64,000 nt of DNA, from positions 1,963,501-2,027,500 of the forward strand of contig NC_012778.1 in NCBI RefSeq assembly GCF_000146185.1, in the 5' to 3' direction. Origin of the DNA: [Eubacterium] eligens ATCC 27750. Its GTDB lineage: Bacteria; Bacillota; Clostridia; Lachnospirales; Lachnospiraceae. The position numbers were made by a program, and so were the translations under genes. A model generated the notes under the pieces. It worked only from the letters and a program-made list of their open reading frames with translations, was not told the DNA's origin and searched no databases. Below are positions 46,086 to 51,094 of the stretch, piece after piece; position 1 is the first letter of the stretch; every line of letters starts with the position of its first letter.

Positions 46086-47609
46086 TTATTTATTATATTT
46101 GCTGATAACTGACCATACTGATGACTTCTCAAGACCTAACTTCCAGCCTGCAACACCTGCCACATTATTTTCCTGTATAATCTGCATCTTGGCCTCTATT
46201 GATTTCTCTTCTTCAAACCATATCTGTCTTGTGGAATTTCCTACAGTATATGAAGCAACATACTGTCCACAGTCATCATTCCACAATGCAACCTGTCCAT
46301 CACTGTTTAACTGGTCAACTGCTGCCTGCATACCAACAGCCCTGCTTGTTGTATTTCCATCTGTTGTTGTCCATATTCTTGTATAAAATGGAATACCTGC
46401 TATTACATGTTCCTTGCCAACAAGCTGTACTGTAGCCTCAACTGCCTCCTTTACAAATGGAAGTGAAGCTACAGAACCGGCATCTGTTCCTGCATAGTGT
46501 TCATCATATGCCATTACAATAACATAATCAACGAATCTTGACTGTTCTTTTAAATTATAGCATCTGTTATATGCCTCCGGTTTATAGTTATCTGTTGACA
46601 ACACAAGACCTTTTCTTTCACATGCAATTGACAATTCTCTTACAAACTGCAGATAATCTTTGGCATATGCGCTCTTAATATTCTCAAAATCAAGATTAAT
46701 TCCGTCAAATCCATACTTTTCAGCATCATTAATAAGTGTATTAACCATATTGGTTCTTGCCTTCTTACTTGAATAAAGTGCTGCAAAATCCACATTTGTA
46801 TCAAAATCACTTACAAGTGCCCATACATCTGTTCCTCTCTGATGCATTTTGTTAACCAGCCCGGCCGATGCATAACATGACATACTGCCTGATGAATCTG
46901 TAACTGAATACCATGTTGGTGCAAGCACATTAACACCTGACGCTGTAGCAATATTATTGTCTATTCCTGAATTGCCAGCCACTCCGCTTACCTGAAACCA
47001 GGCAAGCGTAACCTTGTCATCTTTCATATTATAATTATGAGTCTCATAATTCTTTTCTTCTCTTATATATTCAAATGTATCTGATGCCTCTGTTTTCTTT
47101 ATATATCCTGTATAACCTGTCGCAGTTGTTACCTTTATCCAGTCGTCAAGGTCATCCTCGTAAACTAATCTGTCCCCCTTCTGCACATACTCAAGAACAG
47201 GACTTTTAATTCCTCCCCTGTATCTTACAGCAGACTTCTTTTTAACTGTAACACACTGCTTGTTTTCTCTTTCAATACTGATATTAATTCTTTCCGGTTC
47301 ACTTCCATAAGCGTATTCACAATCTGTATGCTCTGCAATATACTCCCATGCAATAAAGCATTCTCCATTGATATCAATCACAACCGGATAATCTGTATTA
47401 TATGTCTTTCCTGTATCATCCGTGTATACATTTTTACCACTCATATATGTATACATATATGATGAATCTGAATATAATACAGCCTGTGATTCTTTATCAT
47501 AATAAAATCCGGCATTTATATTATCTGCAACAAATTCCTGTGGCAGATAATGTCTTCCATCTGTCACAACTCCGGTATCTGAATACTGTTTTCCATCTAT
47601 AATAACCAT
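46086..47609 (-). CDS. GH18 family glycosidase with SH3-like domain (main part, frameshifted)
   Basis: The 507-residue frame holds an SH3-like region (about 125-180, VKKKSAVRYRGGIKSPVLEYVQKGDRL...) and a GH18 barrel. Its active-site motif is YGFDGINLDFENI (near residue 298), as in YaaH/SafA-type chitinase-like wall enzymes. A VIVMAYDEHY motif follows. The first ATG has no ribosome site. The frame upstream in +1 register encodes a signal anchor that reads smoothly into this one if one T is added to a T7 run, so this is the body of a larger gene. See the 47597-47773 entry. Confidence 0.8.
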   Translation of the reverse strand: MVIIDGKQYSDTGVVTDGRHYLPQEFVADNINAGFYYDKESQAVLYSDSSYMYTYMSGKNVYTDDTGKTYNTDYPVVIDINGECFIAWEYIAEHTDCEYAYGSEPERINISIERENKQCVTVKKKSAVRYRGGIKSPVLEYVQKGDRLVYEDDLDDWIKVTTATGYTGYIKKTEASDTFEYIREEKNYETHNYNMKDDKVTLAWFQVSGVAGNSGIDNNIATASGVNVLAPTWYSVTDSSGSMSCYASAGLVNKMHQRGTDVWALVSDFDTNVDFAALYSSKKARTNMVNTLINDAEKYGFDGINLDFENIKSAYAKDYLQFVRELSIACERKGLVLSTDNYKPEAYNRCYNLKEQSRFVDYVIVMAYDEHYAGTDAGSVASLPFVKEAVEATVQLVGKEHVIAGIPFYTRIWTTTDGNTTSRAVGMQAAVDQLNSDGQVALWNDDCGQYVASYTVGNSTRQIWFEEEKSIEAKMQIIQENNVAGVAGWKLGLEKSSVWSVISKYNK

Positions 47610-47773
47610 TGTTTTATCTGTGGATTTATCCAGGTTAAAAAAACATAACCGTTCATCTTTTCCTTTGTCGGTGTATATCTTACTATCATAAACATTGCTG
47701 CCATAACCACAATCAGTATTACAAATGCAGCTACAATAACAATTCTTTTCTTTCCTGCCGTACTTTTATTCAT
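47597..47773 (-). pseudogene. 5' fragment of the GH18 gene (signal anchor), separated by a frameshift
   Basis: The fragment has a lysine-rich start (MNKSTAGKKRIV), one membrane helix (IVIVAAFVILIVVMAAMFMIV) and a short outside segment. On the minus strand it enters a run of seven T (plus-strand A at 47637-47643). One more T gives a reading NLDKSTDKT that flows straight into the downstream frame's MVIIDGKQYSDTG. So the gene is broken by a one-base deletion, a slippage site or a sequencing error. The full product would be about 560 residues. The ATG at 47773 follows AAAGGCAGAG. Confidence 0.75.
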
Positions 47774-47837
47774 TTCTCTGCCTTTCCTTTGCACATTATT
47801 ATTATAATTGTACCACTATGCATATAAATCATGCAAT

Positions 47838-47969: not shown

Positions 47970-48641
47970 TTAAGTTACTACCCGCTTAAGCATCATGACA
48001 GCCTCTCCATTCATTTCAAAAGGATCCATCTGCATTGGCGCTTTATATGCTTTAAGTTCAAATTCACGTTCCATGTTTTTTGCCCTTTTTTCCTGCCATG
48101 TCATAGAAACAACCGGCATATTTTTTATACTATAAATCCGTCTTATTCTTCCAAGCCTTTTAATACACTCGCCATATTTCCATGGCACCATTGATCCAAC
48201 AAGAACCCGGCACTCACAAGACATTACATCCCTTAAACCATCAGCAAGTCTGTCCTTCATATCTGCAAGATTCACCTCTACTATCACCACATCATAATAT
48301 TCTGTAATGATGTGGACGAAACCTTGTCTTACTCCACTAAAGAAGTCTATCCCCTTATATGAAAATCCTTTTCTGCTACCTGCATAATTCTTCACCTTAC
48401 AAGTCTGCACTTCTTCTTTTATTCTGTCAAAAGCATCATCATAGCAAGAACTTACGATAGCTGTTTTCAGATGAAGTCCATTAGAGAAATAATTTGCAAG
48501 CATAACACCAAGCTGTGTTGTTCCGGCACCGCTGCATAATCCAATCAGTCCGACAGTCTTATAATTTATTACAGCTGTGTTCCTGCTTTTTCTTCTTTTT
48601 TCTAAACCACTTAATAACCCTGAAATTTCTAACTTTTTCAT
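47970..48641 (-). CDS. ParA/CpaE-like pseudo-ATPase
   Basis: The protein of about 223 residues has a MinD/ParA fold pattern: a first strand and loop VGLIGLCSGAGTTQLGVMLANYF, then KTAIVSSCYDDAF and DVVIVEVNLAD. The P-loop is changed: both lysines of the usual K-G-G-x-G-K-T/S are missing. CpaE-type pilus proteins show similar losses. Its 5' end overlaps the kinase gene by about 83 bases in another frame, an unusually long overlap. An ATG at 48641 follows GGAAGG; TTG at 48653 follows AAAGGAG and is the alternative. Function unknown. Confidence 0.6.
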   Translation of the reverse strand: MKKLEISGLLSGLEKRRKSRNTAVINYKTVGLIGLCSGAGTTQLGVMLANYFSNGLHLKTAIVSSCYDDAFDRIKEEVQTCKVKNYAGSRKGFSYKGIDFFSGVRQGFVHIITEYYDVVIVEVNLADMKDRLADGLRDVMSCECRVLVGSMVPWKYGECIKRLGRIRRIYSIKNMPVVSMTWQEKRAKNMEREFELKAYKAPMQMDPFEMNGEAVMMLKRVVT

Positions 48642-50055
48642 ATAGCCTTCCAATACACTCCTTTATTCTGTGAGGTCTGTAACCTTTCATTATCCCTGTA
48701 AGGTTATCCTGTAAGAAATCATTCATTGTTTCGTCAAATATAGGATTTGCTTCATTCCAGTTATATATGCATGGTATTCTATAACATTTCTTTCCTTTAT
48801 ACACACTGTTTACAAGTTCATAAAATTGTCTTGCCCCTACAAGGTTCAGCATAATAATATCTTTATCATCCATCTTCTTCCCGCTGCAATGTGTAGCCTT
48901 TCCAACTATAAAAACCCGTATACATGTATAATTATCCCCAGTAATATCCGTAATTTTAACCTCTCTGCTCTTATTAAAATCACATCCGCAGTCTATAATT
49001 ACAATTCTGCTTCTCACTCCATTTACAGATATTGCATTATAATAATCCGGTATAACTTTTATATTATCATAAAGATAAAATCCTTCTGGCATTAATGTGC
49101 TCCTCACAATTTCCCTGTGCAGATAATCGTTACCAGATTTATCAACAACAACACAATCATATTGATTATTCCGAAAAAAATGTGCCATACTCATAACTGC
49201 ATTAGTAACACCTATACCGGGTTTTTCTCCTGCAACCTGAATGACATAAGAGAGTTTTTCAAATGTACCGCCACCCATTTTCATTATAGATTCCAGTTCT
49301 TCACGAACCAATGTAACACTTTCATACCTCAATCCCCATTGATGATGCAGTGATTTGTTAATTAAGTGATACAATACTGAATATCTTTCAGCTGCTCCTG
49401 ATAAGTTATGATTCTCATATGTCCTGATTTTTCCATGAGAAATCATAAATAGGATGACCATTCCCACACTATATATATCTGACTGCTCCACGGCATCTTC
49501 ACCTGAGTATTGTTCAGGTGCTGCAAATAACAGACTTCCATTATTTACCTGCATACCGCATCCTGCAATGACTGCATTGTCAAAATCTATAAGTTTAACT
49601 TTTCCGTAATTATCAAGCATAATATTATCAGGCTTAATATCCATATGTAATATTCCTTCACCATTAAAGCTGTGAAGATATTCCAGTATACAACACAATT
49701 CTATGCCAATACGGCATATTTCATGGATATCCAGGCAGCCATTAGTCTCTGTTTCATCATTAACATATTGCCGCAAAGATTTACCATCAATATATTCTTC
49801 GATAATGCAGATACTATCATTATCTTCTCCAATATTCTGTTCAATATCATAAATTACAGGAATGTGGGGATGTTTCAAATTCTTAATAAGATGGGCCTCA
49901 TTCAGAAGTCGTTCTGATTCCTCATGACTGCCCGTAAATATCTTGGCTACACGATATACATCTAGTATAACATGCCTTACCAGATAAATTTTAGAATGAT
50001 TGGAACTTGCAAGTTCCTTAATGATTTCATATTTCTCGTAAAATCGGTTATCCAC
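48559..50055 (-). CDS. Serine/threonine protein kinase fused to a MinD-like pseudo-ATPase domain
   Basis: The 498-residue protein has a kinase domain (about 1-260) with the VAK lysine (K38), HMDIKPDN (D139) and DFD (residues 157-159) in place of the usual HRD and DFG, and AAPEQY in the activation segment. The glycine-rich loop is degenerate (ELASSNHSKIY). From about residue 268 a MinD/CpaE-like domain begins at VIQVAGEKPGIGVT: one signature Lys is kept (K278) but the P-loop Lys is Val. There is no membrane helix, unlike PASTA kinases. The start is GTG overlapping GGAGGTG. A ParA-like partner follows. Targets are unknown. Confidence 0.75.
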   Translation of the reverse strand: MDNRFYEKYEIIKELASSNHSKIYLVRHVILDVYRVAKIFTGSHEESERLLNEAHLIKNLKHPHIPVIYDIEQNIGEDNDSICIIEEYIDGKSLRQYVNDETETNGCLDIHEICRIGIELCCILEYLHSFNGEGILHMDIKPDNIMLDNYGKVKLIDFDNAVIAGCGMQVNNGSLLFAAPEQYSGEDAVEQSDIYSVGMVILFMISHGKIRTYENHNLSGAAERYSVLYHLINKSLHHQWGLRYESVTLVREELESIMKMGGGTFEKLSYVIQVAGEKPGIGVTNAVMSMAHFFRNNQYDCVVVDKSGNDYLHREIVRSTLMPEGFYLYDNIKVIPDYYNAISVNGVRSRIVIIDCGCDFNKSREVKITDITGDNYTCIRVFIVGKATHCSGKKMDDKDIIMLNLVGARQFYELVNSVYKGKKCYRIPCIYNWNEANPIFDETMNDFLQDNLTGIMKGYRPHRIKECIGRLYEKVRNFRVIKWFRKKKKKQEHSCNKL

Positions 50056-50177
50056 CTCCTCTTACGACGATACATGAAAAACATCTCCTAAACATAGGAT
50101 ACACTATAATAATTTAATTTTCAATATATTTTTTCAAAAAATTTATATTTATTTTACTACTGCTTTCTTACACCGCC

Positions 50178-50245: not shown

Positions 50246-51094
50246 ATGAAAATAGAAAGACTTAATGAAAATCAGATCAGATGCACACTTAACAAGTCCG
50301 ATCTGGCTTCAAGACATTTGAAAATCAACGAGCTTGCCTATGGCAGCGATAAAGCGAAAGAACTTTTTCGTGATATGATGCAGCAGGCATCGTATGAATT
50401 AGGCTTTGAAGCAGAGGACACTCCTTTAATGATAGAGGCAATTCCTGTTTCAGCAGAATGTATTGTTCTTATTGTTACTAAAGTTGATAATCCTGAAGAA
50501 CTTGATACCCGTTTTTCCCGTTTCTCACCGTCAGATTCTGATGATGATGACGGCTTTGATTTTGATGATATAGAGACAATTGAAAGCAACGGCTACTCAT
50601 CCTATTCTCCTCCTAAAGCTAACGAAGAACTTGATGAAGAAAGCGCCGCTACTGAGGAAGATAATAACATTTCAGAAGATAATCTTATGAATATATTAGA
50701 CCGTGTTAAGGAGTATTTTAATAATAAAGAAACTTCCGGCAAAAAATCCGGTGAGTCTGACACCTCAGAAAACAAACCTACTGTTAAAGAAGCATCCAGC
50801 CATATTGTCAGAGTGTTTTCATTCGGTTCACTTGATGATATCAGTAGTGCTGCCCGGATAATTAACCGCTTTTACCACGATAATAACTCTGTTTATAAGA
50901 ATCCATCTGATAAGCGTTATTATCTCACAATTTCCAAAAACAAAACATCTTCTAAAGATTTTAATAAAGTATGCAACATTCTTTCTGAATATGGTAATAA
51001 AGAAGCTGCATTCGATAATTATACAGGTTTCTTTTCAGAGCATTGTGAATGTATTGTAAAAGAACATGCCATTCATATTCTAAGCAGACTATAA
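50246..51094 (+). CDS. mecA: MecA-like ClpC adaptor protein
   Basis: The 282-residue protein has the N-terminal substrate-binding domain (MKIERLNENQIRCTLNKSDL... FRDMMQQASYELGFE, residues 1-85). A long acidic Asp/Glu/Ser linker (about 90-185, including SDSDDDDGFDFDD) follows. The C-terminal ClpC-binding domain (HIVRVFSFGSLDDI... YNNYTGFF-like ending) is about 190-282. It presents proteins to ClpCP for degradation. The linker is longer than in Bacillus MecA, whose length is about 220. Monocistronic, with its own promoter and terminator. Confidence 0.88.
   Translation: MKIERLNENQIRCTLNKSDLASRHLKINELAYGSDKAKELFRDMMQQASYELGFEAEDTPLMIEAIPVSAECIVLIVTKVDNPEELDTRFSRFSPSDSDDDDGFDFDDIETIESNGYSSYSPPKANEELDEESAATEEDNNISEDNLMNILDRVKEYFNNKETSGKKSGESDTSENKPTVKEASSHIVRVFSFGSLDDISSAARIINRFYHDNNSVYKNPSDKRYYLTISKNKTSSKDFNKVCNILSEYGNKEAAFDNYTGFFSEHCECIVKEHAIHILSRL

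Follow-up and report, generated by a model that had tools for sequence, protein, structure and literature searches.

A conserved kinase–partner gene pair of Lachnospiraceae that may work like a CpaE/TadZ-type regulator carrying a Ser/Thr kinase

What does a protein kinase fused to a MinD-like domain do together with a second MinD-like protein, if both MinD-like domains lack the P-loop lysine? Two overlapping genes of [Eubacterium] eligens ATCC 27750 raise this question. We analysed them in a stretch of 64,000 nucleotides (NC_012778.1, positions 1,963,501 to 2,027,500; hereafter the window), taken from a genome of 2.83 Mb in three contigs. The pair comprises the following features, numbered by window position:

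48559..50055, minus strand: kinase gene, 498 aa, GTG start; its product has a Hanks-type kinase domain followed by a C-terminal MinD/ParA-like domain
49321..50055, minus strand: kinase domain, residues ~1–245, with Lys38, Glu53, HMD Asp139 and DFD Asp157; non-RD
48706..49260, minus strand: MinD/ParA-like domain of the kinase, residues ~266–450
49198..49230, minus strand: Lys-less P-loop of that domain, GEKPGIGVTNA
48562..48705, minus strand: C-terminal basic tail of the kinase, a long helix of low confidence in the model, partly within the gene overlap
47970..48641, minus strand: partner gene, a ParA/MinD-fold protein of 223 aa, ATG start; residues 1–23 have pLDDT <50 in the model
48510..48542, minus strand: Lys-less P-loop of the partner, GLCSGAGTTQL
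48559..48641, minus strand: overlap of the kinase and partner genes, 83 bp

The kinase domain matches Pfam Pkinase with an E value of 7.7e-30 and 104.6 bits (curated cut-off 31.7); outside this region no Pfam or NCBIfam family covers the protein, and the Pfam search gave no PASTA match. Its best PDB sequence match is StkP. A first-pass annotation had described the HRD and DFG motifs as altered, and they indeed read HMD and DFD. We aligned the window kinase with those of 31 other loci and found that the catalytic Lys, the αC Glu, the HxD Asp and the DxG Asp are all kept in 32/32 sequences. The HRD Arg position holds Leu in 27 of the 32, Arg in two and other residues in three (Met in the window kinase); the catalytic-loop Lys position is Lys in 19, Gln in 12 and His in one, the catalytic-loop Asn position Asn in 24 and His in eight, and the DFG Gly position Gly in 23, Asp in eight and Asn in one. 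These counts make the altered motifs a family trait of a non-RD kinase. Among 18 kinase relatives outside Lachnospiraceae, Y-R-D stands at the HRD site in 17, and the 18th was unmatched by the search pattern. Judged by its sequence, the window kinase is probably catalytically active; the minority of kinases in which the catalytic-loop Lys or Asn is replaced may have weak activity or have lost it.

The annotated start codon of the kinase is uncertain: its GTG directly abuts a Shine-Dalgarno-like AGGAGG with zero spacing (window 50040–50090), as in three close relatives (GGGAGG in one), and an out-of-frame ATG lies just 5′ of the GTG in three of these four. At the other end of the protein, the basic tail was considered as an amphipathic membrane-targeting helix of the MinD kind: its best helical moment (0.64) equals the maximum of the protein body (0.64), the helix is modelled with low confidence and the tails of relatives vary. 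A Lachnospira eligens MAG protein is 49% identical to the window kinase, compared over the C-terminal region only; P0004, a 596-aa kinase from a Lachnospira eligens MAG, has an internal tandem duplication in its MinD-like domain, possibly an assembly artefact.

The partner is covered by no Pfam and no NCBIfam family. A ParA/MinD fold was found both for it and for the MinD-like domain of the kinase, with FlhG among the structural matches, and PDB searches by sequence returned nothing meaningful for the partner, the partner profile, two wider relatives or the TadZ of the window genome. As the first-pass annotation had noticed, the P-loop Lys is missing from both window domains; it is likewise missing from all related domains with a readable P-loop (0/96), among which G-x-G-[T/V/C/A]-T-H prevails. 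In either domain, the columns of the P-loop Gly, Gly and Thr and of the D-x-G motif belong to the best conserved of the alignment. Since the Lys-less P-loop is family-wide and highly conserved, the site appears remodelled rather than decayed. The window genome departs from the prevailing form in having Asn (kinase) or Gln (partner) for the P-loop His, which counts against the reading favoured below, and its partner has Glu in place of a conserved Asp.

The earlier description of the two domains as inactive partner ATPases is therefore unsupported as worded: the Lys-less P-loop is conserved, and PMC10482377, citing earlier work, reports that E. rectale TadZ keeps ATPase activity without either lysine, a Lys of an adjacent helix compensating. 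The conservation of the P-loop Gly, Gly and Thr and of D-x-G, and the report on TadZ, would fit a persisting nucleotide switch, in which the MinD-like domains bind ATP, and perhaps hydrolyse it, through a Lys or Arg supplied from elsewhere and dimerise in a nucleotide-dependent manner, as E. rectale TadZ does. Most members, however, have His where the second P-loop Thr would stand, and this exchange, together with the Glu of the window partner, makes us consider such a switch rather doubtful.

How the two MinD-like domains relate to each other was addressed in a tree of 83 domains, which separates kinase-type domains (36 plus one from a solo kinase) from partner-type domains (31, plus seven from solo kinases and eight from other contexts) with support of 100/99. 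When outgroups are added, the kinase-type clade stays single except for its one solo row (99/96), in a tree whose deep nodes on the non-kinase-type side are weak and whose bootstrap has not settled. By these trees the two MinD-like domains are paralogous clades. Seven of the eight solo kinases in the tree (two further solo proteins, L141 and L143, were left out, and two solo rows come from one genus) carry the partner-type domain themselves, and an adjacent partner gene was not found at the solo loci. By the Rosetta-stone argument, this fusion of the partner-type domain to the kinase is a sign that kinase and partner function jointly.

We then asked how widely the pair occurs. Among 397 Lachnospiraceae genomes, the profile of the kinase C-terminal domain matches 72 and the close partner profile 64; a wider partner profile matches 174 at E 0.01 and 109 at E 1e-10, a few of them in other contexts. 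We compared 41 loci, namely the window and 40 chosen, not at random, from the profile hits. A separate partner ORF is present at 37 of them, on the strand of the kinase in all 37 and overlapping the kinase gene in 24, a rough count because partner starts outside the window are longest-ORF starts; for the window itself, the 83 bp agree with the overlap of more than 80 bases read earlier. In a scan of named genomes the partner ORF adjoins the kinase at 18/19 loci (one truncated at the end of its contig); the remaining locus is that of a Methylovulum kinase, without an adjacent partner ORF. The closest named locus is that of Eubacterium sp. AF22-9 (94%); Lactobacillus (Lachnospira) rogosae ATCC 27753, [Clostridium] fimetarium DSM 9179, Mobilisporobacter senegalensis and Velocimicrobium porci are further carriers, and Lachnoclostridium phytofermentans is the source of a named partner protein. 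The first-pass annotation had looked to the recurrence of the pair in Lachnospiraceae, and took a lack of co-occurrence elsewhere as the point that would speak against its module; since the two genes recur together, that objection does not apply.

The pair lies between two neighbours that are kept with it:

50246..51094, plus strand: mecA, the divergent neighbour kept in the locus
46086..47609, minus strand: GH18/SH3 gene, conserved downstream of the pair; the part for its N-terminus is upstream, in a different frame

Divergent mecA, then the kinase, then GH18 is the arrangement at 37/41 loci; in L076 the GH18 gene lies on the far side of mecA, in L089 mecA is absent from the stretch, and in L105 and L109 GH18 is. 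The window GH18 gene has its N-terminal signal-anchor segment out of frame with the remainder, near a T run (window 47570–47780), and its counterpart in AF22-9 (L112) is an intact ORF of 569 aa; the frame break in the window may be a sequencing error, decay or phase variation.

We also examined mecA regions of genomes that have no strong match to the partner, using 20 genomes, 15 without a match to the wider partner profile and five with a weak one. A mecA gene was found in 19 of these, and 20 of 23 mecA places were covered (one each in G002, G022 and G078 was left out, and some stretches are cut by contig ends). No kinase was found in any of the 20 regions: the two genes occur, or are missing, as a unit. 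We conclude that they form a real, conserved two-protein unit, and the earlier term 'undescribed' holds for the literature that we searched, which gave no description of the pair.

Two alternative roles bear on this setting. PADLOC kinase models match the kinase domain, as would be expected of an anti-phage defence kinase; yet the best 25 of 34 PADLOC matches are all confined to the generic kinase domain, no PADLOC model matches the partner, and most defence islands do not keep so fixed a place on the chromosome, leaving a defence role very improbable. The constant flanks could instead point to envelope signalling linked to the neighbours, in which the kinase would control MecA/ClpC or wall enzymes (GH18 and amidase) and no pilus-type machine. 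Against this, GH18 stays close to mecA in 16 of the 20 pair-less regions, so that mecA and GH18 do not need the pair.

Relatives outside the family suggest a different setting. A search of the class matched 43/391 genomes at E 1e-8, and all 18 kinase–MinD fusions considered outside Lachnospiraceae (L178 6161–7600, L176, L179–L182 and L209–L220; 17 from one family and one from another) lie in one operon type; a 147-aa fragment (G468) and 15 matches with shorter open frames were left out of this count. The operon encodes (i) the kinase–MinD fusion, (ii) a SAF protein, (iii) a protein of ~215 aa, (iv) a ParA-like protein, (v) a TadA-like ATPase of ~620 aa and (vi) a polytopic protein of ~680 aa, in exactly this order in 17/18 loci. 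SAF domains occur in CpaB of Tad pili. For the L178 set, the SAF match exceeds its Pfam cut-off and the AAA_31 (ParA-like) and T2SSE matches stay below theirs, the label TadA-like being drawn also from CpaF matches and from a TadA-family NCBIfam row below cut-off; the MinD domain of the L178 fusion has matches below cut-off to CbiA (E 0.0015) and to a CpaE-homolog model (E 2.5e-4). The operon looks like a minimal Tad-like machine, of which we found no description. The ~215-aa MinD-like gene was considered as the ortholog of the partner and dropped, its match reaching a probability of only 52%. Next to the operon, L178 has SLH and DUF5704 proteins and L176 has an RHS protein. Neither mecA nor GH18 was matched in the stretches around the 18 fusions, which counts further against signalling tied to these neighbours.

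Relatives of the domain without a kinase lie near CpaF-like ATPases in L183, L187, L188, L137 and, weakly, L151; no such ATPase was found near those of L134, L135, L136, L139, L140, L146, L177, L184 and L185. A Lys-less MinD-like protein stands near a VirB4/TraG-like protein in L151 (5993–7126) and another near a T2SSE ATPase in L137 (5636–8326). Lys-less MinD-like proteins of this type may be used by more than one transfer or secretion system. The earlier suggestion to look for neighbouring tad or secretion genes thus stands for the relatives, which lie beside pilus- or secretion-type ATPases, and fails for the window pair, which is not part of a tad locus: the CpaF gene of the tad locus is ~36 kb away and the pair sits between mecA and GH18. 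That tad locus (L009 2300–12414; G000 C1 ~2042299–2052413) encodes, besides CpaF, a protein that is FHA-like by eye and a TadZ with a degenerate P-loop.

We compared 40 carriers (strong match to the wider partner profile) with 40 non-carriers (no match, or a weak one with E above 1e-6), a set of 78 genera trimmed from 100 genomes before results were seen and analysed without a species tree; several features were tested, and the p values are given without multiple-test correction. The profile of the polytopic protein matches 14/80 genomes, 13/40 carriers vs 1/40 non-carriers (Fisher p 7e-4, phylogeny ignored). At the 13 machine loci of 12 of these 14 genomes (G150 and G182 were left out), the TadA-like ATPase and the ParA-like protein are present in 13/13, the SAF protein in 5/13 and the 215-aa protein in 8/13, and the kinase in none within the stretches examined. 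In those Lachnospiraceae that have the machine, the kinase heading the operon elsewhere is therefore encoded at the mecA locus.

The marker is unmatched in 27/40 carriers, among them the window genome and both other members of its genus that were searched. This also speaks for signalling linked to mecA and GH18, which we nevertheless regard as unlikely in view of the pair-less regions and the outside operons. For a regulator of the TadA-type machine, it means that the target in the window genome must be something else. Two ORFs of that genome, of 651 and 351 aa, have T2SSE matches (profile E 0.0031 and 6.4e-7) and were rejected as candidates for the machine ATPase; the polytopic protein is unmatched in the 3-kb stretches around them.

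Classical Tad itself does not track the pair, since CpaF is present in 80/80 genomes, carriers or not, and gives no co-occurrence signal; the TadZ proteins of Tad loci (20 genomes) are weakly related to the MinD-like domains of the pair. A link to sporulation was dropped (Spo0A in 33/40 carriers vs 27/40 non-carriers, p 0.20). Flagellin is found in 30/40 carriers vs 14/40 non-carriers (Fisher p 6e-4, phylogeny ignored), and FlhG is among the structural matches noted above, as would suit a motility regulator in which a MinD/FlhG-like platform lets the kinase act on flagella; given that 10/40 carriers have no flagellin match, we consider this improbable.

We favour, with a probability of roughly 40%, a regulator that resembles CpaE/TadZ and acts on a TadA-type envelope machine, a kinase replacing the receiver domain. 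Kinase and partner would together make up one such regulator, built from two MinD-like halves, with the Ser/Thr kinase sitting where CpaE/TadZ has its receiver domain. The kinase-type and partner-type domains would pair into a platform, presumably a heterodimer, and the remodelled G-x-G-[T/V]-T-H site may bind a ligand or hold the dimer together without a normal ATP switch. This platform would bring the kinase to an envelope machine with a TadA/CpaF-type ATPase, where it could phosphorylate machine components or their partners. Other Clostridia would have the fused gene within the machine operon, and in Lachnospiraceae the kinase would act in trans from the mecA–GH18 locus, with the partner-type domain usually in a separate, often overlapping gene. 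A sharper version, which would amount to a new class of regulator, is tentative: the kinase would be held on a heteromeric MinD-like pair whose rebuilt P-loop (Lys to Thr/Val, Thr to His) senses a ligand that is not cycled like ATP and gates kinase output onto an undescribed minimal TadA-type machine (SAF, ParA/MinD-like proteins, TadA-like ATPase, polytopic platform) that is encoded in cis in other Clostridia but in trans in Lachnospiraceae. If the favoured regulator exists, positioning factors of the CpaE/TadZ type can bear a Ser/Thr kinase, which would connect protein phosphorylation with how a pilus-type machine is assembled or placed, and a P-loop conserved without its Lys can still function. 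For common gut Lachnospiraceae, the pair provides a kinase that is open to testing and has a defined partner; some species also offer a candidate for the machine.

Among known systems, PknB/PrkC-type Hanks kinases share with the window kinase the kinase fold and the catalytic Lys, Glu, Asp and Asp, whereas the window kinase lacks a PASTA match, is non-RD and is fused to a MinD-like domain. The deviant Walker A ATPases MinD, ParA and FlhG share the fold, unlike the pair family in their P-loop, where the latter has no Lys and mostly the His-containing form. A MinD protein that activates and positions a kinase has a precedent in B. subtilis, where, according to PMC4205851, MinD binds PtkA, switching it on and directing its location, and is also in contact with the Hanks kinase YabT. 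PtkA, however, is a BY-kinase that is itself MinD-like with a catalytic P-loop Lys, and its MinD is the ordinary division protein; the intact P-loop Lys of BY-kinases (PtkA/CapB) is not present in the window proteins. Closest in concept is CpaE/TadZ. PMC13170226 presents models with CpaE dimers arranged around CpaF and describes E. rectale TadZ as an atypical ATPase domain with an atypical receiver domain. The window pair shares the atypical MinD-like ATPase domain, and some non-kinase relatives of its domain clade lie near CpaF-like ATPases. It differs in having two paralogous halves and, in place of a receiver-like domain, a kinase domain or, in the partner, an N-terminus of ~27 residues; it also lies outside the tad operon, whereas all 18 outside relatives are in a Tad-type operon with a TadA-like ATPase. 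Lacking a receiver-like domain and a Tad-type operon here, the pair is, from its sequence and context, not a CpaE/TadZ member; most likely, it works like a CpaE/TadZ regulator equipped with a kinase.
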